Source: Candidatus Flemingiibacterium merdigallinarum (GTDB taxonomy: Bacteria; Bacillota; Clostridia; Oscillospirales; CAG-272). From it: a stretch of DNA of 49,487 nt. Under the pieces are notes generated by a model, which made no database searches, was not told the DNA's origin, and saw nothing but the letters and a program-made list of their open reading frames with translations. The stretch covers positions 1-49,487 of the forward strand of contig CAJFKR010000008.1 of the NCBI GenBank assembly GCA_904386005.1. Reading direction: 5' to 3'. Shown piece by piece: positions 1-10,763 of this stretch. Numbering within the stretch: the stretch's first letter is position 1; each line of letters starts with the position of its first letter. A program made the translations under genes and the position numbers.

Positions 1-91
1 AATAACCATATGGTATGATACAATTTAAGCGTAATTTGCTACGTTTATGTGTTGTATTAATACACAGCCTGTCTTGAGAAAGGATTATATC

Positions 92-1537
92 ATGTATCTG
101 ACCAGACTTTACCCCTCACCTAATACATATACCGAGAATTCGGGCGAAGCTTTCATGTTCGGCTCCGAGTGCCGAATTGCACTGCCTGATTGTCTTAGTG
201 ACGCGGAAGTTAAAAATATCGCTGACCTTTTCAGCCGCTTCACGTTTACCGCGTCGAAGGCGAAACTTGTACGCTGCTCCGGCTATACCGCGTTTGTTGG
301 CGACTTCCCTGTTGACGCCGCCCCAGACGCCGGCGAATACTACACCGTCCATTCGGACAAGCGCGGAGCCGTCGTCTCGGCAGTCAGCAAAAAGGCGCTG
401 ATCGAAGGCGTGTCGATGCTCATGCAGCTGATAATCCCCCGCTCGCTCGACGCTGGCTCGGAGGAATTCACTATTACTCCTGTCGACCTTGCCGACCAAC
501 CGTCTATCAAGGTGCGGATGATTCACCTCTGTGTATTCCCCGAGAGCAGTATGTCAACGCTTAAAAAAGCGGTCGCGATGGCCGGTTTCCTCGGCTTCAC
601 GCACGTGATCCTCGAATTCTGGGGTATGCTGAGATATGACATAAACCCGTCGCTGTCTTGGGACAACGCGTTCACCAAGACCGAGATGAAGTCGCTCGTC
701 GAGCTCGCGCAGGGCTGGGGCATGGAGGTTATTCCGATGATAAACCATCTCGGTCACGCCGCGCAATCTCGAGTCGGCATGGGTCGCCACACGATACTAA
801 ACCAGAATCCTCGGATGCAATTGCTGTTCGAGCCGGACGGCTGGACTTGGTGTACAACCAGCAAGAAGGCGAGAGCGCTGCTGTCTGACATACGTTCAGA
901 GCTGATGGAGCTCTGCGGCGACGGAGAATACTTCCATCTCGGATTTGACGAGGCGTATTCGTTCGCTACCTGCCCGAATTGCCGCAAACATGAGCCCTAC
1001 AAGCTGCTTGCCGAGTATATCAACTATCTGTCGGATGATCTTGCAAAATACGGTCGCCGCGGAATTATCTGGCACGATGAGCTTATCAGCTGCAACGACT
1101 TCTCCCCCGAGGAGCGCAAAAATATGGTCGCCAATGGTCAGAGCCACAACACACATCCGGCGCTCGACCTCATCGACCACCGAGTCGTGATTGCCGACTG
1201 GCAGTACAATTATGGAACTGACGCGAACCCCTCGACCGAATACTTCATCAAGAAGGGCTTCGATGTGCTCTGCTGTCCGTGGGACAATCCGTCGAATGTA
1301 AAGGCTCTTTGCAACTCGACGCGCAATACCGGAGCCTTCGGCATAATGATGACCACATGGCATCACCTCCCCGCGTTCATTTCGATGATGCCTCGCTTCG
1401 GCGATTATATGCACAGCGAAAAGCCCGCGCCCTTCCTGCCGATCAGCGAAACAGCCGCGCTGCTGCGCAAGGTCTATCCCGAGGCTATTCAGACCTTCGA
1501 GGAATCGGGCTGGCGCCGCTGCGAAGTTGACGACTGA
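92..1537 (+). CDS. GH20-like beta-N-acetylhexosaminidase
   Basis: ORF with catalytic-type motif HLGFDEAY (GH20 HxGxDE); RBS AGAAAGGA 8 nt upstream of ATG at 92, preferred over ORF start 47. Confidence 0.78.
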   Translation: MYLTRLYPSPNTYTENSGEAFMFGSECRIALPDCLSDAEVKNIADLFSRFTFTASKAKLVRCSGYTAFVGDFPVDAAPDAGEYYTVHSDKRGAVVSAVSKKALIEGVSMLMQLIIPRSLDAGSEEFTITPVDLADQPSIKVRMIHLCVFPESSMSTLKKAVAMAGFLGFTHVILEFWGMLRYDINPSLSWDNAFTKTEMKSLVELAQGWGMEVIPMINHLGHAAQSRVGMGRHTILNQNPRMQLLFEPDGWTWCTTSKKARALLSDIRSELMELCGDGEYFHLGFDEAYSFATCPNCRKHEPYKLLAEYINYLSDDLAKYGRRGIIWHDELISCNDFSPEERKNMVANGQSHNTHPALDLIDHRVVIADWQYNYGTDANPSTEYFIKKGFDVLCCPWDNPSNVKALCNSTRNTGAFGIMMTTWHHLPAFISMMPRFGDYMHSEKPAPFLPISETAALLRKVYPEAIQTFEESGWRRCEVDD

Positions 1538-1552
1538 CACAACATAATAAAA

Positions 1553-1584
1553 AACGGTCTCCGTGTCAAAAACGGGGACCGCAG
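1553..1584 (-). terminator. Rho-independent terminator of HydG-like gene
   Basis: minus strand CGGTCCCCGT-TTTTGAC-ACGGAGACCG followed by TTTTTTATT. Confidence 0.75.
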
Positions 1585-1598
1585 TTGTTTCGCTAATA

Positions 1599-2702
1599 TC
1601 AAAATCTGAATCCGCGCTCGCCGCCGCGTATCTGCTTCATGGCAAGTGCCAGTTGGTCGCGTATCTGCTTATTGCCAATTCCGTAGAGACGATTCAGAAT
1701 CAGATCGGTGGCGGCGATTCGTGTCTCGCGCGAAGCGTGATCGGCGACAAATTCACGCAGTGATATCAAACTGTTCAAATAGCAATAGTTGTAAAGCTGT
1801 TTGTCAGCACAGAGATCCGCGTATTCGCCCGAGTATCTGTCACAGGCGACGCAAGCGGCACAGAGACCGGACAGAATATGTGCGTCTGTAAGCCGTTTAA
1901 CCACATCGTCTAAAGCCTTTATCGCCTCGCCTGAAAGATACACAAGCGATACTCCCGCTTTGGCAAAATCGACGACATCGTTAGTTGTACCAAGCTCAAT
2001 ACCGATTTTCGCGAACGGCAGCGAGATCGCAAGCAGCGCGCAGAAGCGTATCAATGCAGCCTTGTCTGTATTTGATGCCGGACATACCCGAATCCCGGCA
2101 ATATACAGCTTGTCCGGCTGACCTTCCGACTCGGCGCACAGCTCAAGTGTCTGCCGCAGTGCCGCCGCAGGATCGCCGCTCAATTCAATGTCTAAACCGA
2201 TGAGCTTGTATCCGGCAGCTTTCACATTTGCGAAGCTGTTCTGTACATCCCCTCGCTCGAAACCGGCACTGATATTTGCGAAGCAGAGTTCCGCGCCCAG
2301 TTCGTGCAAATCGTTCAGTCCGGCGTCGAACGACTGCGCACCCAGTTCGATACAGCCACAGTGATCTTCATCAAATTGTTTGGCTGCCGATGAAACCGCC
2401 TCACGGTCTTTGTCGATATCGCCGGACAATTTGATATGGAGACGCTTGTGTCCACACTCGGCGGCACGTTTGATCTCAGCTTCAAATGATTTCGCGCCCT
2501 CGACCTGTATAGACGCGGCAATAGTAACGCTCTCGGAGAAAATGTCCCGTTTGAGCGCGGCAGCCACATCTGTCAGATGTTCTGTGGCACAGTCGCTGTC
2601 GGCAAACATCGATACAGCCTCATCCGGATTCAATCCGGTGAAGTTTTCAACCCGTTTGAACAGCTCCGATTTGTCATAAGCGTTTTGCTTGTTATTTTCC
2701 AT
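1599..2702 (-). CDS. HydG-like (radical SAM ThiH/HydG family) protein lacking the CX3CX2C motif; C-terminal CX2CX22C retained
   Basis: C-terminus CAACVACDRYSGEYADLCADKQLYNYCYLNSLISLREFVADHAS..ETR..ERGFRF is collinear with the HydG C-terminal domain; start MENNK has RBS GCGAGGA. Confidence 0.7.
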   Translation of the reverse strand: MENNKQNAYDKSELFKRVENFTGLNPDEAVSMFADSDCATEHLTDVAAALKRDIFSESVTIAASIQVEGAKSFEAEIKRAAECGHKRLHIKLSGDIDKDREAVSSAAKQFDEDHCGCIELGAQSFDAGLNDLHELGAELCFANISAGFERGDVQNSFANVKAAGYKLIGLDIELSGDPAAALRQTLELCAESEGQPDKLYIAGIRVCPASNTDKAALIRFCALLAISLPFAKIGIELGTTNDVVDFAKAGVSLVYLSGEAIKALDDVVKRLTDAHILSGLCAACVACDRYSGEYADLCADKQLYNYCYLNSLISLREFVADHASRETRIAATDLILNRLYGIGNKQIRDQLALAMKQIRGGERGFRF

Positions 2703-2740
2703 AATAATATCCTCGCTTGATTCCACTGTTATTTTATAAT

Positions 2741-2769
2741 ATTATAACATAAATCTTCGTCAAATGCAA
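2741..2769 (-). promoter_or_regulatory. sigma-A type promoter for HydG-like gene
   Basis: minus strand TTGCAT-17 nt-TATAAT. Confidence 0.6.
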
Positions 2770-2813
2770 CCGCATTGGCGTCAAATATATTGATTAAAGG
2801 ATGGCGAATCGTA

Positions 2814-3920
2814 ATGAAAAAATTAAGAATCGGCTTTGTCGGCGTCGGATGCATCAGCGGCATCTACCTTGAAAATATCACGAAGCTCTTCCGCGAAATC
2901 GAGATTGCCGGTGTCTGCGACCTTGTCCGCGAAAAGTCGGAGAACGCCGCGAAGAACTACCCGATACCGAAGATTTACAACGATATGTACGAGCTTTTCG
3001 CCGACCCGGATGTCGATATCGTGCTGAATATCACGCGTCCTGCCGACCATTACGAGGTCACGCGCGCCGCGCTGCTCGCCGGCAAGCACGTCTACTCGGA
3101 GAAGCCGCTCGCGGCTGAGTTCAGTCAAGGACTCGAGCTGGTGAAGCTCGCGAACGAAAAGGGACTGATGCTCGGCGGCGCGCCCGATACCTTCCTCGGC
3201 GCCGGACTCGAGACCTGCCGCCGCCTCATTGACGACGGCTACATCGGCAAACCTATCGGCTGTGCGGCAAGGATGGTCGGTCACGGACCTGAGTCATGGC
3301 ATCCCGACCCAGAATTTTTCTACAAGCCGGGCGGCGGTCCGATGATGGACATGGGGCCTTATTACATCACCGCGCTTGTCAATATGCTCGGTCGCGTAAA
3401 GTCGGTCTGCGGCATGACGAACATCTCCTATCCTGAGCGCACCTGCACCTGCAAGGAGCATTTCGGCGAAAAAATCACAGTCGAGACCCCGACATCGATA
3501 AACGGCATTTTGCAATTCGAGTCAGGCGCGATGGGAAGCATATACACCACATTCGACGTAGACCATACGAGTGGAGTCGCGCTCGAGGTATACGGCTCGG
3601 AGGGCACGCTCTACTGTCCCGACCCGAACACGTTCGGCGGCGAGGTAAGGCTGCTGCGCCACGGTCAGCGCGAACCTAAAGCTGTTCCCCTGCTTTACAA
3701 GTATGAGGGAAACAGCCGCGCACTCGGGCTGGCCGACATGGCAAAAGCGATAGCGACCGGACGAGCACCGCGTGCCGGCTGTCAGCAGACCCTGCACGTT
3801 CTCGAAGTAATTACGTCGATTATCAAGAGCGGCGAGACTCACGAATTCATCAACCTCACGACCGACTACAAGCGTCCCGAGCCGATGGTCTGGTCGGAGC
3901 TTGACGGAATCCTTGACTGA
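2814..3920 (+). CDS. Gfo/Idh/MocA family oxidoreductase
   Basis: N-terminal GFVGVGCISGIYLENI Rossmann motif, EKPLAAEF motif; internal ATG at 2814 chosen. Confidence 0.85.
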   Translation: MKKLRIGFVGVGCISGIYLENITKLFREIEIAGVCDLVREKSENAAKNYPIPKIYNDMYELFADPDVDIVLNITRPADHYEVTRAALLAGKHVYSEKPLAAEFSQGLELVKLANEKGLMLGGAPDTFLGAGLETCRRLIDDGYIGKPIGCAARMVGHGPESWHPDPEFFYKPGGGPMMDMGPYYITALVNMLGRVKSVCGMTNISYPERTCTCKEHFGEKITVETPTSINGILQFESGAMGSIYTTFDVDHTSGVALEVYGSEGTLYCPDPNTFGGEVRLLRHGQREPKAVPLLYKYEGNSRALGLADMAKAIATGRAPRAGCQQTLHVLEVITSIIKSGETHEFINLTTDYKRPEPMVWSELDGILD

Positions 3921-3930
3921 GATATACGAC

Positions 3931-3956
3931 AACCGCGATTGAATCGCGGTTTTTTA
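3931..3956 (+). terminator. terminator after Gfo/Idh gene
   Basis: AACCGCGATTgAATCGCGGTTTTTT. Confidence 0.8.
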
Positions 3957-4052
3957 TGTAAACTGACAGTTGCGCAAATTGATTATGAAATTTGGTGGCG
4001 TATTATTCCATAATCGGGTATAATAAAGAAAATCAAACATGGAGGTGTCCTG

Positions 4053-5468
4053 ATGAAACGCGCAATCATTCTCTGCTGCCTCTGTACACTCTCGCTCATT
4101 AGCTGCGGCAGCCAGAACCAATCTATTGAAACTACCACCGTAGTTGATACCACAATCGGCGAAACCAAACCGGTAATACCGGTCAAGGATTTTGGTGGAG
4201 AGACAATTACCATTTATGCAAGAGACGACCTCAAAGGCAACGAGTGGAACGTCTCTGACATCGACGCCGAAGTTGAGACCGGCGAGCCGATTAATGACGC
4301 GGTATATCGCCGCAATTCGAATATTATGGACCGATATAACATCAAGCTCGAAATTGTCCGAAGCGGGGCAATGTTTTCGGTCGATACAGTACGAAACGTC
4401 GTGCTCTCCGGCGACGACATTTACGACGCTCTAATGCTTGCGGGCTATGACATGACGGCTCTGACCCAGGAAAAGATGCTGTATAACCTGCTGTCACTCG
4501 AAAATATCAATCCATACGCGTCTTACTGGAACCCGACGCTCTCCGAAAGTCTGACTCTCGAAAACAAGCTTTACGCCGCTATCGGCGATATCAGTACTAT
4601 CGATAATCGAGCTGTCCGCTGCCTGTATTTCAACAAAGACCTGTTTGACAGCTACAACCTCGAATATCCCTACCAATCGGTTCTTGATGGAAATTGGACA
4701 TATGAGGACTTCTTTTCACTGGTAGCGATGGGCAACGCCGACCTCGACGGAAACAGCGTATACGACGAAAATGATCAGTATGGACTGTTCGTTCAGTCCT
4801 CACTCGGCATGAATTTATACTATGCTTCGGGACTGAGCTACATAAACAAGAGCGATGAGGGGCTGCTTGTGCCCGAGTTTACTGGAGAAAAAGCGGTCGA
4901 AATCATGCAGGACATCAGTGACTTGATAGCTTCAAACAAGAGCAGCATTGCATGGAGCGATGATTTTCAGAAATACATGACTTTGTTTTCCGAAAACAAA
5001 GGATTATTCTACGCCGAGGTGCTCTACTTCACTGAATATTTCCGTCAATATGATTTCAACTTCGGAATACTGCCTATGCCAAAATATGACGAAAACCAAG
5101 AGAACTACCAGCAGTTTGCCGACGGAAGCTGCGTCAATCTTTGCGGTATACCAATAACGAATAACTCTCCAGAGGACGCCGCGCTGATACTTGAAGCGCT
5201 CTCCGCTGAATCGGTCGAGCTCCTGACTCCGGCATATTACGATGTCTGCCTTATCGGCAAGCAAATACGTGACGACGAGTCTCGCGATATGCTCGATATT
5301 ATATTCAATTCATATGTCGTCGATTACGGAAATCTGCTGCAGCTTTCGGTTTGCTATACACTGAACAATGCTATGATAAATGGTTCAAACGTCGCTTCAA
5401 TAGTCGAAAGCCAGCGCTCACAGACCGAATCATTGTTAAACGATTACAATGAATTGATGACAGAATAA
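4053..5468 (+). CDS. extracellular solute-binding lipoprotein
   Basis: lipobox LISCG; RBS GGAGG; DLDGNSVYDENDQYG loop typical of SBP family. Confidence 0.8.
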   Translation: MKRAIILCCLCTLSLISCGSQNQSIETTTVVDTTIGETKPVIPVKDFGGETITIYARDDLKGNEWNVSDIDAEVETGEPINDAVYRRNSNIMDRYNIKLEIVRSGAMFSVDTVRNVVLSGDDIYDALMLAGYDMTALTQEKMLYNLLSLENINPYASYWNPTLSESLTLENKLYAAIGDISTIDNRAVRCLYFNKDLFDSYNLEYPYQSVLDGNWTYEDFFSLVAMGNADLDGNSVYDENDQYGLFVQSSLGMNLYYASGLSYINKSDEGLLVPEFTGEKAVEIMQDISDLIASNKSSIAWSDDFQKYMTLFSENKGLFYAEVLYFTEYFRQYDFNFGILPMPKYDENQENYQQFADGSCVNLCGIPITNNSPEDAALILEALSAESVELLTPAYYDVCLIGKQIRDDESRDMLDIIFNSYVVDYGNLLQLSVCYTLNNAMINGSNVASIVESQRSQTESLLNDYNELMTE

Positions 5469-5474
5469 ACTTAA

Positions 5475-5506
5475 GCCGACCGCGGTAAACGCGGTCGGCT
5501 GTTTTT
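5475..5506 (+). terminator. terminator after solute-binding protein
   Basis: GCCGACCGCG-GTAAA-CGCGGTCGGC then TGTTTTT. Confidence 0.85.
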
Positions 5507-6381
5507 CACAAATTTATCACTATAATCGCGGCGATGCCGATAATAATGCCGATTTTTCCCATAAACGTCGTCCGTTCACGCAGGACAAGCATCGCCCAGA
5601 GCGTGACAAAAACCATCGTGCCGCCCTGTACAAACGGGAAAAGATACGAGCTCGCGATCCGTCCGGACAGATACGAGACGACGACATTTCCGCCGCCGGT
5701 GCCAAGTGCGACTAACGTCAGCGGTACAAGCCCGCGTTTCAGCATTTTGAAATTATCAGCGCGTACTTCCTTTTTTCCGGTCAAAAATATCACAACGGCG
5801 ATTATCACCATGACTAAAAACGCGCAAAAGAGCAGCGCGATTGTGTCGGACAGCTCCGCGTCTCCGATGAAACGCTGGTGCAGCGTAATCAGCACCGAAA
5901 GACTTCCGTTGCATAGCCACGTCAGAAAACAGAGCGGCAACCACGCGCGATTTGCTTTATTTCCCCGCTCGCCGCCAAATACCGTGATACAGAGAAAAGC
6001 CGCTAAAAACAGCAGTATACCTATCTGCACCGGCAGAGTGAAAGGCTCCTTCCAGAATATCAGTCCGACCGCCGCCGGTATCAGCATACTTGCCGAGAAG
6101 AAAAAGCCGGTGTATGAAAGCGGTCCCGACTGCATCGCGAAATAGTAGACCGCGAGCGTCACCATGAACATTACGCCGACGATCACGCCGAATCCGAGGG
6201 TTACGGGCGCGATTTTTGTCCGCGTGAACAGCAGCACGATTCCGGTCGCCGCGGCGATTATCACAGCCGACGCGCCGGTCGTCAACAGATTTTCACGCAG
6301 CGAGTTTACCTCTATCTTTTTTAACGCCGCGCTCTGAATGCCGAACAGCAGTATTGAAACTGCGATCAATAAAATTTCCAT
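5506..6381 (-). CDS. EamA/DMT-type multi-TM transporter
   Basis: about 10 hydrophobic segments, terminal VTLWAMLVLRERTTFMGKIGIIIGIAAI EamA-like pattern. Confidence 0.75.
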   Translation of the reverse strand: MEILLIAVSILLFGIQSAALKKIEVNSLRENLLTTGASAVIIAAATGIVLLFTRTKIAPVTLGFGVIVGVMFMVTLAVYYFAMQSGPLSYTGFFFSASMLIPAAVGLIFWKEPFTLPVQIGILLFLAAFLCITVFGGERGNKANRAWLPLCFLTWLCNGSLSVLITLHQRFIGDAELSDTIALLFCAFLVMVIIAVVIFLTGKKEVRADNFKMLKRGLVPLTLVALGTGGGNVVVSYLSGRIASSYLFPFVQGGTMVFVTLWAMLVLRERTTFMGKIGIIIGIAAIIVINL

Positions 6382-6420: not shown

Positions 6421-7335
6421 TCAGCTATTACCCATCAGCTTGACCATGACCGCTTTCTGCGCGTGCAGACGGTTCTCGGCCTCCTCGAATATCTCGTTTG
6501 CGTGAGCCTCGAATACCTCGGCGGTGATCTCCTCGCCGCGGTGAGCCGGCAGGCAGTGCTGAACCATTGCGTCCTTGGCAGCGACGCTCAAAAGCTCATC
6601 GTTTATCTGATAGCCCTTGAACGCTATTCTGCGCTTCTCGGCCTCGCCCTCCTGACCCATCGACGCCCATACGTCGGTGAACAGCACGTCCGCGTCCTTA
6701 GCGGCTTCGAATATGTCTCCGGTCAGCTTGAAGCTGTCGCCGTAACCGGCGGCAAAGTCGAGCACCTGCTTGTCGGGGTGGTAGTCGACCGGACAAGCCG
6801 CCGATACCTTCATGCCTACTGTCAGACCGCCGACAATCAGCGAGTTCGCCATGTTATTGCCGTCGCCGATGTAGCACATCTTCAGCCCGTCAAAGCCGCC
6901 CTTGAACTCGCGGATAGTCATAAGGTCGGCAAGTACCTGGCAGGGATGGCAGTAGTCGGTAAGTCCGTTGATAATCGGTATGTCGGCGTATTTCGCGAGG
7001 TCCTCTACCTCCTTCTGCGCGAAGGTGCGAATCATGATGCCGTCGAGATAGCGTGCGAGTACGCGCGCGGTGTCCTCAACCGGCTCGCCGCGTCCGATCT
7101 GCAAATCGCGGCTCGACAGAAACAAAGCCTGACCGCCGAGCTGGTACATTCCGGCTTCAAACGAGACGCGTGTGCGGGTCGACGCCTTCTGGAAGATCAT
7201 TCCGAGCGTTTTACCGGCGAGCAGCTTGTGCTCGATGCCGTTCTTGCGCTCATATTTGAGCTGCGACGCGAGATTTAGTATATCGATTATGTCCTCTTTC
7301 GTGAGGTCAGCCATTTTCAGAAGATCATTTTTCAT
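6421..7335 (-). CDS. argF: ornithine carbamoyltransferase
   Basis: KASTRTRVSFEAGMYQLGG, HCLPAHRGEEI motifs; RBS GGAAAGGA. Confidence 0.96.
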   Translation of the reverse strand: MKNDLLKMADLTKEDIIDILNLASQLKYERKNGIEHKLLAGKTLGMIFQKASTRTRVSFEAGMYQLGGQALFLSSRDLQIGRGEPVEDTARVLARYLDGIMIRTFAQKEVEDLAKYADIPIINGLTDYCHPCQVLADLMTIREFKGGFDGLKMCYIGDGNNMANSLIVGGLTVGMKVSAACPVDYHPDKQVLDFAAGYGDSFKLTGDIFEAAKDADVLFTDVWASMGQEGEAEKRRIAFKGYQINDELLSVAAKDAMVQHCLPAHRGEEITAEVFEAHANEIFEEAENRLHAQKAVMVKLMGNS

Positions 7336-7385: not shown

Positions 7386-8564
7386 TTATTTCAATACATC
7401 GGCGAGGATTGCGACACCCTTGTCGATTTCGTCATAGCTAATCGTGAGCGGCGGCAGCAGACGGATCACGTCGCTTCCGGCGGTCAGCACCAGCAGCCCC
7501 TTGTCGGCGCAGTCGTGTAAATAGTCCTTTGGATTGCCCGAAACTTGGAAACCTATCATCAAGCCCTTGCCGCGGACGCCGACGACCTTACTCGGCGAAT
7601 AGGACATTAACTTGTCGCAGAGATATTTGCCTTTCTTCGTCACCTCATCGAGAAACTCGGGTTTCGAGACGCGCTCAAGCACATTCAGCGCGCCCGCGCA
7701 GACGACTGGATTCGAACCGAACGTCGTGCCGTGCATACCCGAACCGAGCGTGTCGCAGCACTTCTCGCCCGCGATGAATACACCGATAGGCAGTCCGCCG
7801 CCAAGTCCTTTCGCGAGCGTCATGATATCCGGCTTCACGCCGAAATACTCGTGCGCAAAGAATTTGCCGGTACGACCGATACCGGTCTGTACCTCGTCGA
7901 ATATCAGCAGAATGTCGTGCTCGTCACAGAGTGCGCGAAGCTTCTTGACATAGTCAATGTCAAGTACGTTTACTCCGCCCTCGCCCTGAATCGGCTCGGC
8001 GATGACCGCGCAGACGTCGTCGGTGCAGGCGGCGGCAATCGCGTCGTAATCGTTCGCCGGGACATACTTGAAGCCCTCGGTGAACGGGTAGAAATACTGG
8101 TGGAACACATCCTGTCCGGTCGCGGCGAGCGTAGTTATAGTGCGTCCGTGGAATGAGCTCTTCAGCGAAACAATCGTGCTCCGACCGTCCTTGTATTTGT
8201 CGTATGAATATTTGCGCGCGAGCTTAATCGCGCCCTCGTTCGCCTCAGCTCCTGAGTTGCCGAAGAACACCTTCGACATTCCCGACAGCTCGACAAGCCA
8301 TTTTGCGACCAGTCCGGCGTTCTCACAGTAGTAGTAGTTGCACATATGCTGGAGCTTTGTGAGCTGCGCCTCAACGGCTGCGATCCATTCGTCGTCGCAG
8401 TAGCCAAGCGAGTTTACGCCGATACCGCTTGTGAAATCTATAAATGTCTTGCCGTCAGCGTCGACCATCGTCGCGTTTTTGCCTTTCATCGGCGCAATCG
8501 GCAGTCTGCCATAGGTCGCCATTATATATTCATGGTCGAGCGCCATGATTTCATTATTATTCAT
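7386..8564 (-). CDS. argD: acetylornithine aminotransferase
   Basis: PLP-binding region LIFDEVQTGIGRTGKFFAHE, TLAKGLGGG. Confidence 0.95.
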   Translation of the reverse strand: MNNNEIMALDHEYIMATYGRLPIAPMKGKNATMVDADGKTFIDFTSGIGVNSLGYCDDEWIAAVEAQLTKLQHMCNYYYCENAGLVAKWLVELSGMSKVFFGNSGAEANEGAIKLARKYSYDKYKDGRSTIVSLKSSFHGRTITTLAATGQDVFHQYFYPFTEGFKYVPANDYDAIAAACTDDVCAVIAEPIQGEGGVNVLDIDYVKKLRALCDEHDILLIFDEVQTGIGRTGKFFAHEYFGVKPDIMTLAKGLGGGLPIGVFIAGEKCCDTLGSGMHGTTFGSNPVVCAGALNVLERVSKPEFLDEVTKKGKYLCDKLMSYSPSKVVGVRGKGLMIGFQVSGNPKDYLHDCADKGLLVLTAGSDVIRLLPPLTISYDEIDKGVAILADVLK

Positions 8565-8633
8565 TGCAAAATTCTGCCTTTCGTATAGTCTGACTATTAA
8601 TCATACCGCCGGATATCTGACGCCGACGTGAAA

Positions 8634-9497
8634 TCAAAGCTTGAACAGTGTACCGATACCTTCATCGGACAGCATTTCTATAAGTATCGAGTGAGGTATA
8701 CGACCGTCGAGAATGACCGTGTGGCTGATACCGCCGCGCACCGCGTCGACGCAGCATTCGACCTTCGGAATCATGCCGCCGCTGATTATACCAGCGTCGA
8801 TGAGTCCCTGAACCTCGTCTATGCGTATCTCGGGGATTAATGTCGACTCGTCCTTCGAGTCGCGCATAACTCCGCGCGTGTCGGTCAGCAGCATCAGATT
8901 CTGCGCGCCGAGCGCGATCGCTATTTTGCAGGCTGCCGTGTCGGCGTTGATGTTGTAGACCGGACTGTCGGAGTCGCCATACGCGACGGTCGAAACAACC
9001 GGAATGTAGCCCGAGTCGATGTTGTCGCGGATTATCGACGCGTCTACCTCGTAGATGTCGCCGACATTGCCGTAATCGTATTCGCCTTTCAGCTTCTTTG
9101 CCTTGATAAGACCGCCGTCGATTCCGCAGAGTCCGACCGCGCGACCTCCGATCTGTTCGATTTTGTTGACTAAATCCTTGTTTGTCTTTCCCGCGAGCAC
9201 CATTTGTACAATGTCGATAGTCTCGTCGTCGGTATAACGCAATCCGTTGATGAACTTCGACTCCTTGCCGATTTTCTTCAGCATCTGCGATATCTCCGGT
9301 CCGCCGCCGTGAACCAATACGGTGTTGATTCCGACCAGCGACAACAGTACGATGTCGGATATAACCGCCTCTTTTAAGTCCTCGTTGACCATAGCGTTGC
9401 CGCCGTATTTGATTACGACCGTCTTGCCGGTATATTTTTGAATGTATGGCAGCGCCTGTATCAGCACCGCAGCCTTGTCATGATTCGATATGATCAT
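8634..9497 (-). CDS. argB: acetylglutamate kinase
   Basis: VIKYGGNAM, LVHGGGPEIS motifs. Confidence 0.96.
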   Translation of the reverse strand: MIISNHDKAAVLIQALPYIQKYTGKTVVIKYGGNAMVNEDLKEAVISDIVLLSLVGINTVLVHGGGPEISQMLKKIGKESKFINGLRYTDDETIDIVQMVLAGKTNKDLVNKIEQIGGRAVGLCGIDGGLIKAKKLKGEYDYGNVGDIYEVDASIIRDNIDSGYIPVVSTVAYGDSDSPVYNINADTAACKIAIALGAQNLMLLTDTRGVMRDSKDESTLIPEIRIDEVQGLIDAGIISGGMIPKVECCVDAVRGGISHTVILDGRIPHSILIEMLSDEGIGTLFKL

Positions 9498-9527
9498 TGT
9501 CGTATTCCTTTGAAATGTGATTTTCTG

Positions 9528-10763
9528 TCATGAGCGGTAGTCGCCGTTGATGTGGACGTATTCATAGCTTAAGTCGCAGCCCCACGCGGTCGCGTTGCAG
9601 TCGCCCGACTTCATATCGATATCGATTATGATTTTGTCGCAGAGCAGAATTTCCTTAGCCCTTTCCTCCGAAAAGTCGACGCTGTGACCGTTTTCCGACA
9701 CGAGTATCTCACCGGCTTCGCTGATAAACTTAACGTCGATTTTATCGGTGTCGATGTCGATTCCGGCGTAACCGAGCGCGCAGAGTATGCGTCCCCAGTT
9801 AGCGTCCGCGCCGAACATCGCGGTCTTGACAAGTGACGAGTTGATGACCGACTTCGCGAGTATACGCGCGTTCGCGGCGTCGCCAAAATTGCGCACGCGG
9901 CACTCGAGCAGCTTGGTCGCGCCCTCGCCGTCAGCGGCAATAGCCATGCAGAGGTTCGTACAAACCTGTTTCAGCGCGGCTTTGAACACAGCGTAATCGC
10001 TGTCCTGAGCTGTAATTTCAGCGTTGCCGGCCTTGCCGGACGCGAGCAGGGTTACCATGTCGTTTGTCGACGTGTCGCCGTCGACGCTGACCATGTTGAA
10101 CGTGTCGCGGATAACTTCAGACAGCGCGGTCTGCAAAAGCTCGGGAGAGATCGCGATGTCGGTCGTAATGAAGCAGAGCATTGTCGCCATGTTAGGCTGA
10201 ATCATGCCCGAGCCCTTGCAGATACCGCCGATTTTCGCGGTCTTGCCGCCGACATTGAATTCATATGCGAATTCCTTTTTCTTGGTGTCGGTCGTCATAA
10301 TAGCGCGAGCCGCGGTGTCAGACCCCTCGGCTGTCGCCGAAATTTTATCAAGGAGCGTCGGTATTCCGGTGATTATCGGCTCGATTTGCAGCGGCACGCC
10401 GATGACTCCGGTCGAAGCGACTATGACGTCGTCCTCGGTAATGCCGAGCTTTTCGGCGAGTGCGGCGCAGACCGCGTTCGCCTTTTCATAGCCGTCGGGG
10501 CAGCAGGCGTTTGCGTTGCCGCTGTTGCAGATTACGGCGCGTGCACGCTTATTTTTGAGGTGAGCGCGTGTGACTCCGACCGGAGCGGCGAACACACGGT
10601 TGGTGGTAAACACTCCTGCCGCGGCGCATTCGTCGTCGGCGACGATCAGCGCGAGGTCGAGCTTATCTTTATTTTTACGCAGTCCGGCGTGAATTCCCGC
10701 CGCGCGGAACCCTTTCGCGGCGCATATACCGCCGTCACAAGGGACAATAGTATATTCGGACAT
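9528..10763 (-). CDS. argJ: glutamate N-acetyltransferase / amino-acid acetyltransferase
   Basis: IQPNMATMLCFITTD (autocleavage MATM-L region), ANWGRILCALGYAG. Confidence 0.95.
   Translation of the reverse strand: MSEYTIVPCDGGICAAKGFRAAGIHAGLRKNKDKLDLALIVADDECAAAGVFTTNRVFAAPVGVTRAHLKNKRARAVICNSGNANACCPDGYEKANAVCAALAEKLGITEDDVIVASTGVIGVPLQIEPIITGIPTLLDKISATAEGSDTAARAIMTTDTKKKEFAYEFNVGGKTAKIGGICKGSGMIQPNMATMLCFITTDIAISPELLQTALSEVIRDTFNMVSVDGDTSTNDMVTLLASGKAGNAEITAQDSDYAVFKAALKQVCTNLCMAIAADGEGATKLLECRVRNFGDAANARILAKSVINSSLVKTAMFGADANWGRILCALGYAGIDIDTDKIDVKFISEAGEILVSENGHSVDFSEERAKEILLCDKIIIDIDMKSGDCNATAWGCDLSYEYVHINGDYRS

Follow-up and report, generated by a model that had tools for sequence, protein, structure and literature searches.

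A HydG-derived protein without the SAM-cluster loop at the ancestral hydG locus

The gene for a HydG-like protein was analyzed in a 49,487-nt stretch of DNA (the window). We found that the protein derives from HydG, that it has lost the loop that holds the SAM cluster together with the other active-site segments, and that it has kept the cysteine motif of the auxiliary cluster. The gene (pseudo-hydG) and its product (pseudo-HydG) stand where sister species have an intact hydG. Pseudo-HydG is probably a repurposed helper protein rather than the product of a decaying gene. That it is the descendant of a displaced type-B hydG and now acts as an accessory pseudo-maturase binding a [4Fe-4S] cluster is a reading to which we give about an even chance.

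RESULTS

The window protein derives from HydG

The window protein was compared with family profiles, with known structures and with two full-length orthologs from the same genus, one of 360 aa (G005:C9) and one of 341 aa (G001:C7). The HydG profile TIGR03955 matched the window protein with an E value of 4.5e-19 and the two orthologs with E values of 2e-34 and 2e-31. The scores of the three pseudo-HydGs (68.2, 118.8 and 109.2 bits) are all below 312.15 bits, the curated TIGR03955 cut-off for HydG. When the three pseudo-HydGs were aligned with 36 HydGs by hhalign, the two profiles were collinear over 354 columns (probability 100, E 1e-48), a stretch that runs from the N-terminal helices to the very end of the protein. 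Using tblastn with the HydG of a sister species, we found that residues 35 to 471 aligned with the G001 ortholog (E 5e-42), and a phmmer search of the PDB with the window protein returned HydG (4wcx) as the sole match. In Pfam, no family, including radical-SAM, matched the window protein up to an E value of 10, and none matched either ortholog up to 0.01. The initial annotation had read the protein as collinear with HydG from the letters; TIGR03955, the only NCBIfam family assigned to the window protein, and hhalign bear this out far above chance.

Structure prediction gave the same picture. AlphaFold2 was run with the three sequences only, and the model of the window protein (pTM 0.80) has a complete (beta/alpha)8 barrel of eight strands, followed by the C-terminal helices. 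The top PDB matches of this model in Foldseek were the HydG structures 4wcx (TMq 0.81) and 4rtb, and the G005 ortholog, modeled independently (pTM 0.81), also had HydG as its first match (TMq 0.77), which made HydG the best structural match of both proteins. The (beta/alpha)8 barrel and the C-terminal helical domain are thus retained in the predicted fold. The loop after C284 was modeled with low confidence, and the cluster geometry is not firm from the model.

The active-site residues are lost and the auxiliary-cluster motif is kept

The 36 HydGs share seven invariant cysteines. All three pseudo-HydGs lack four of these, namely the SAM-cluster trio and one more, and retain the trio of the auxiliary cluster. 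The CX3CX2C motif (C106/C110/C113 in the HydG of the same genome) is deleted or replaced in each of them, while CX2CX22C is exact in each. The alignments therefore agree with the earlier statements that the window protein contains no CX3CX2C and retains CX2CX22C, and both orthologs share the loss of the one and the C-terminal cysteines of the other. The initial annotation had also drawn attention to an extra cysteine, C287, which forms CX2CX2C. C287 is present in the window protein, but it is not conserved in the orthologs, in contrast to C298, so that we assign it no functional weight. Only C221, C281, C284, C298 and C307 are invariant across the three pseudo-HydGs.

The lesion was first described as deletion of the SAM-cluster loop. 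That loop is missing (Table 1), but the damage is wider, since no active-site segment of the barrel has escaped shortening or replacement, with the strands kept. The tyrosine-binding residues T299, R300, R306, S318 and S321 (ThiH numbering) are conserved in HydG (PMC9046217). In the pseudo-HydGs, the STRE...SRTSVGGY segment, which holds tyrosine-binding residues, and the SAM-binding GEDP region are replaced or deleted. The histidines of HAxHLE are lost as well, H269 being replaced by Q, R and R, and H272 by E, S and E, in the three proteins. One of these histidines is the fifth-iron ligand in HydG, and because they are lost the fifth-iron site of pseudo-HydG is probably gone. With the SAM-cluster loop and the SAM-, tyrosine- and fifth-iron-site residues lost, pseudo-HydG is not expected to make CO, CN- or the iron synthon Fe(CO)2(CN)Cys.

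Table 1. Features of the pseudo-hydG locus in the window
Feature	Position	Strand	Remarks
GH20-like glycosidase	47..1537	+	Homolog (55% identity) adjoins hydF in G003; syntenic marker
Intrinsic terminator of pseudo-hydG	1549..1581	-	Hairpin 1555-1581, then minus-strand TTTTTT (1554-1549)
Pseudo-HydG coding sequence	1599..2702	-	367 aa; ATG at 2702, stop 1599-1601
C-terminal helical tail, residues 318-367, most constrained part of pseudo-HydG	1602..1751	-	Invariant columns 20/50, against 28/261 in the barrel
Auxiliary [4Fe-4S] motif CX2CX22C (C281, C284, C307) and C298	1782..1862	-	C298 conserved in 3/3 orthologs
Position of the absent HydG CX3CX2C loop (about 24 residues)	2496..2516	-	Residues 63-69; from alignments
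GAGGA, likely ribosome-binding site, 7 nt 5' of the pseudo-hydG ATG	2710..2714	-	From sequence
Promoter-like site TTGACG-16-TATTAT upstream of pseudo-hydG	2736..2763	-	Consensus match only
argF	6421..7335	-	Locus anchor upstream of hydG (G002, G003) and of pseudo-hydG (G005, window)
argD, argB, argJ	7386..10763	-	Remainder of the conserved arginine cluster

The open reading frame has been maintained

The open reading frame is intact, and its coordinates, strand and ATG start are as first annotated. A promoter, ribosome-binding site and terminator of its own, also claimed at that stage, are plausible from the TTGACG-16-TATTAT, GAGGA and hairpin-TTTTTT elements in Table 1; the terminator is common to pseudo-hydG and the convergent GH20-like gene. 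Pseudo-hydG now stands alone, in no operon with maturases or hydrogenases.

We then compared pseudo-hydG among the three species. The pN values were 0.42 to 0.52 and the pS values 0.75 to 0.85, which is supportive rather than exact, as the alignment step somewhat favours identical residues. Synonymous sites of neighbour genes are saturated between these species (pS about 0.75), and because dS is saturated no figure is given for dN/dS. The dN of pseudo-hydG (0.6 to 0.9) is 5 to 12 times that of the neighbour genes (0.06 to 0.16), and constraint is weak, but the rate stays under that of neutral change. Of 200 copies evolved neutrally in a simple simulation, none still had an open frame at half the divergence of pseudo-hydG.

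The constraint has also shifted within the protein. In pseudo-HydG, 40% of the columns in the last 50 residues are invariant and 11% of those in the barrel, whereas in HydG the barrel reaches 47% and the last 50 residues, at 12%, are conserved least. This reversal has a p value of 2e-6, and some of the residues conserved in the tail region, such as L309, S314 and Y340, are specific to pseudo-HydG. Decay thus appears unlikely: three species have an open frame with synonymous divergence saturated, pN lies below pS, and such a shift of constraint is not what decay should produce. The small number of sequences, three, is the chief limit of this argument. The earlier view that this is not a decaying pseudogene is upheld on the same grounds.

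Pseudo-hydG occupies the ancestral hydG locus

In G002 the gene order is argJ-argB-argD-argF, hydE-hydG-hydF, an ECF transporter and a convergent alaS, and in G003 a glycosidase gene separates argB-argD-argF from hydG-hydF, after which come a convergent GH20-like gene and alaS. In G005, argF is followed by pseudo-hydG and a convergent alaS, with orientations as in the sister loci. The window has argJ-argB-argD-argF (10763-6421), three inserted genes, pseudo-hydG and the convergent GH20-like gene. The neighbour of pseudo-hydG in G001 is an SGNH hydrolase gene, 69% identical to one near alaS in G005. Since sister species have an intact hydG-hydF at this locus, the window gene is, by position, the descendant of the hydG found in G002 and G003. 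A tblastn search for hydE and hydF remnants at the pseudo-hydG loci found none. The three genes at 2775-6381, between argF and pseudo-hydG, encode a Gfo/Idh/MocA oxidoreductase, a solute-binding lipoprotein and an EamA transporter; they occur only in the window species and were apparently inserted into the conserved arg-hyd locus.

The window contains no hydG, hydF, hydE or [FeFe]-hydrogenase gene. The initial annotation had noted that hydE, hydF and hydrogenase genes are absent here, which is correct for the window but not for the genome. The window genome (G000) has an intact hydG-hydF at C106 and hydE at C82, and G005 has an intact hydG-hydF at C3 and hydE at C49, in both cases away from pseudo-hydG; [FeFe]-hydrogenase genes are present in both. 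To describe the gene as apart from the hydrogenase system was therefore misleading, given its ancestral hydG locus and the full hydE/F/G set elsewhere. Pseudo-hydG was found only in genomes with [FeFe]-hydrogenase genes. In G001, a 95%-complete draft (L074, L077), no hydE, hydF or hydG was detected, and a partial canonical HydA ([FeFe]-hydrogenase) and pseudo-hydG are present; missing contigs are as likely an explanation of this maturase gap as a real loss.

The HydGs of G000 and G005 (type A) are 77 to 79% identical to those of G002 and G003 (type B), and a single clade of all four is rejected (AU p 0.003). HydF is 56 to 62% identical between the G000:C106 and G005:C3 pairs and the G002:C17 and G003:C39 pairs. 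The use of two hydG-hydF pairs in one genus points to replacement of a maturase set by horizontal transfer or to its differential loss. All species with both pseudo-hydG and a detected HydG have type A, and the type-B species have no pseudo-hydG. A simple duplication of the genome's own HydG is disfavoured by the synteny with type-B hydG. In a tree of the C-terminal region, the pseudo-HydGs and type B fell on one side (support 65/17), and placement with type A was not rejected (p 0.07 to 0.11); the tree is thus compatible with a type-B origin, not proof of it, and synteny carries the origin. G002 (C3:4531-5553, L063) and G003 (C45:37259-38239, L064) each encode one more HydG/ThiH-like radical-SAM protein, of about 450 codons. 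They score 177 and 175 bits against TIGR03955 and are possibly ThiH; L063 was read through one in-frame TGA.

The family is restricted to one genus in the genomes sampled

Pseudo-hydG is present in three of the six species of the genus, which is probably one of clostridia that live in the gut or rumen. The window protein is 27 to 31% identical to its orthologs, which are 42 to 43% identical to each other. Searches of 395 genomes from the family, 394 from the order, 391 from the class and 399 from the phylum (partly overlapping sets, about 1,500 in total) yielded no further member. The matches in these sets were HydG C-termini in long frames and contig-end or frame-broken HydGs, and they were rejected as members. 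An alignment scan of contigs returned only the two known orthologs (in a Clostridiales MAG and in the 'uncultured Ruminococcus' MAG RUG11171), the same scan with the single window protein returned no match, and a scan of viral contigs found no pseudo-HydG. The family is therefore genus-restricted in the genomes sampled. Broken hydG frames were also noticed in other genera of the family: L048 (G347:C43) has a stop after ...HTISVPRL, and L050 (G126:C26) is joined to unrelated sequence, by either real decay or assembly error.

DISCUSSION

We propose that an ancestral type-B hydG between argF and alaS became pseudo-hydG at its original locus. The type-B system would have been displaced by type A, hydE and hydF would have gone from the ancestral locus in this lineage, and the B hydG would then have survived without its catalytic parts. 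H-cluster ligand synthesis would presumably fall to the type-A hydG-hydF and the separate hydE in G000 and G005. After loss of the SAM-cluster loop and of the SAM-, tyrosine- and fifth-iron-site residues, the protein has kept the (beta/alpha)8 scaffold, as predicted, and the CX2CX22C domain. C281, C284 and C307 may hold a single [4Fe-4S] cluster in which one iron site is open. Pseudo-HydG would then function by binding, not by catalysis. As an accessory pseudo-maturase, it could dock through its C-terminal domain on HydE, HydF or HydG-A, or keep a cluster or synthon bound while the [FeFe]-hydrogenase matures.

The fifth iron of HydG sits on the C-terminal cluster, the Fe(CO)2(CN)Cys synthon forms there, and HydG hands it directly to HydE (PMC12752695), so that an accessory role in maturation is the most economical guess. 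A role in H-cluster maturation is plausible and unproven. The loss of the HAxHLE histidines, the absence of a shared operon and the weak constraint count against it, and it would be wrong for G001 if the absence of hydE, hydF and hydG there is real. More tentatively, a SAM-less HydG could be a new H-cluster biogenesis factor whose auxiliary-cluster domain receives, holds or passes iron or an Fe(CO)(CN) intermediate, or gates HydE or HydF, beside a second HydG of foreign type; we consider this rather improbable at present.

The main rival is that pseudo-HydG is a [4Fe-4S] protein with a task outside hydrogenase maturation, such as sensing of iron, oxygen, CO or cyanide, or cluster transfer. The initial annotation had likewise inferred a SAM-independent carrier of a cluster or iron, or a sensor, derived from HydG; of this, the derivation, the lost SAM chemistry and the kept cysteines are supported, and the carrier or sensor role is conjectural, the histidines around the fifth iron of HydG being lost as well. 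Retention of the three cluster cysteines after loss of all catalytic parts would fit such a protein, as would a solitary gene with its own promoter-like site and the occurrence of pseudo-hydG in G001, where no HydE, HydF or HydG was detected. However, the gene has been found solely in [FeFe]-hydrogenase genomes and solely at the old hydG locus, the protein has no DNA-binding or other added domain, and the G001 maturases are possibly unassembled, a partial canonical HydA being present. We regard this rival as possible but doubtful. On the other hand, pseudo-hydG could be a functionless hydG copy in slow decay, its frame open by chance. It would have been redundant once type-A HydG was acquired, its product is only 28 to 31% identical to the G005 copy compared with 90% for HydG-A, deletions are many and the barrel is weakly conserved. 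Decay is nevertheless unlikely, as three frames are open past saturated synonymous divergence while the neutral simulations left none open, pN is clearly below pS, the deletions are in frame and in loops with the predicted fold whole, and the conserved residues, family-specific ones included, cluster around the auxiliary-cluster motif and in the tail.

Two further explanations carry very little weight. Some non-canonical SAM enzymes have other cysteine spacings, and the barrel fold is kept, but it is highly improbable that pseudo-HydG still works as a radical-SAM enzyme through an unusual cluster motif at another place in the barrel: the five invariant cysteines provide no three-cysteine motif there, and the residues for SAM and substrate are gone. 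An error of sequencing or assembly that removed the loop from a normal hydG can be practically dismissed. Although the host genome is a draft of 153 contigs, the segment is missing in three independent assemblies, about 75% of the residues of pseudo-HydG, along its whole length, differ from HydG, and a real HydG of 535 open codons lies separately in the same genome. The initial annotation had named such an error as a possible refutation, and the orthologs without the same segment refute it.

If pseudo-HydG folds and binds a cluster, it would represent a natural split of the HydG halves, with the tyrosine-lyase site removed and the auxiliary-cluster domain kept. Hydrogenase chemists could then probe the auxiliary domain alone for its cluster type, the fifth iron and HydE docking. 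It would also be a clean bacterial example in which a second gene copy displaces the old one and the old copy persists as a pseudoenzyme at the original locus.

Among known systems, pseudo-HydG is closest to HydG (TIGR03955; 4wcx, 4rtb), which it resembles in collinear sequence, predicted fold, CX2CX22C and C-terminal helical domain, and its gene shares the genomic position of the type-B hydG of sister species. In contrast to HydG, it is about 100 residues shorter and has no SAM cluster, SAM/tyrosine site or HAxHLE histidines, its gene is not beside hydE or hydF and evolves many times faster, and its constraint lies in the tail instead of the barrel. The aromatic amino-acid lyases ThiH and NosL, found by the structure search, belong to the same barrel family, but they are more distant than HydG, as they retain the SAM cluster and have no counterpart of the C-terminal cluster domain of HydG. 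In the literature searched, mostly open-access papers, no HydG relative lacking the SAM cluster was found. As in other pseudoenzymes, the fold is kept (as predicted), the catalytic residues are lost and the open reading frame appears to be maintained by selection. In the AdoMetDC prozyme (PMC5201418) and deoxyhypusine synthase (PMC3663545), a dead relative of the enzyme likewise keeps the fold and accompanies the active version in the genome. Those dead paralogs regulate enzymes; pseudo-HydG is likened to them by its fold, its lost residues and its open reading frame. Unlike them, it is prokaryotic, keeps a metal-site motif and probably arose from an ortholog that was displaced and stayed at its old locus rather than from a simple duplicate. 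Dead enzyme paralogs are thus a known kind, and pseudo-HydG is a variant of that kind.
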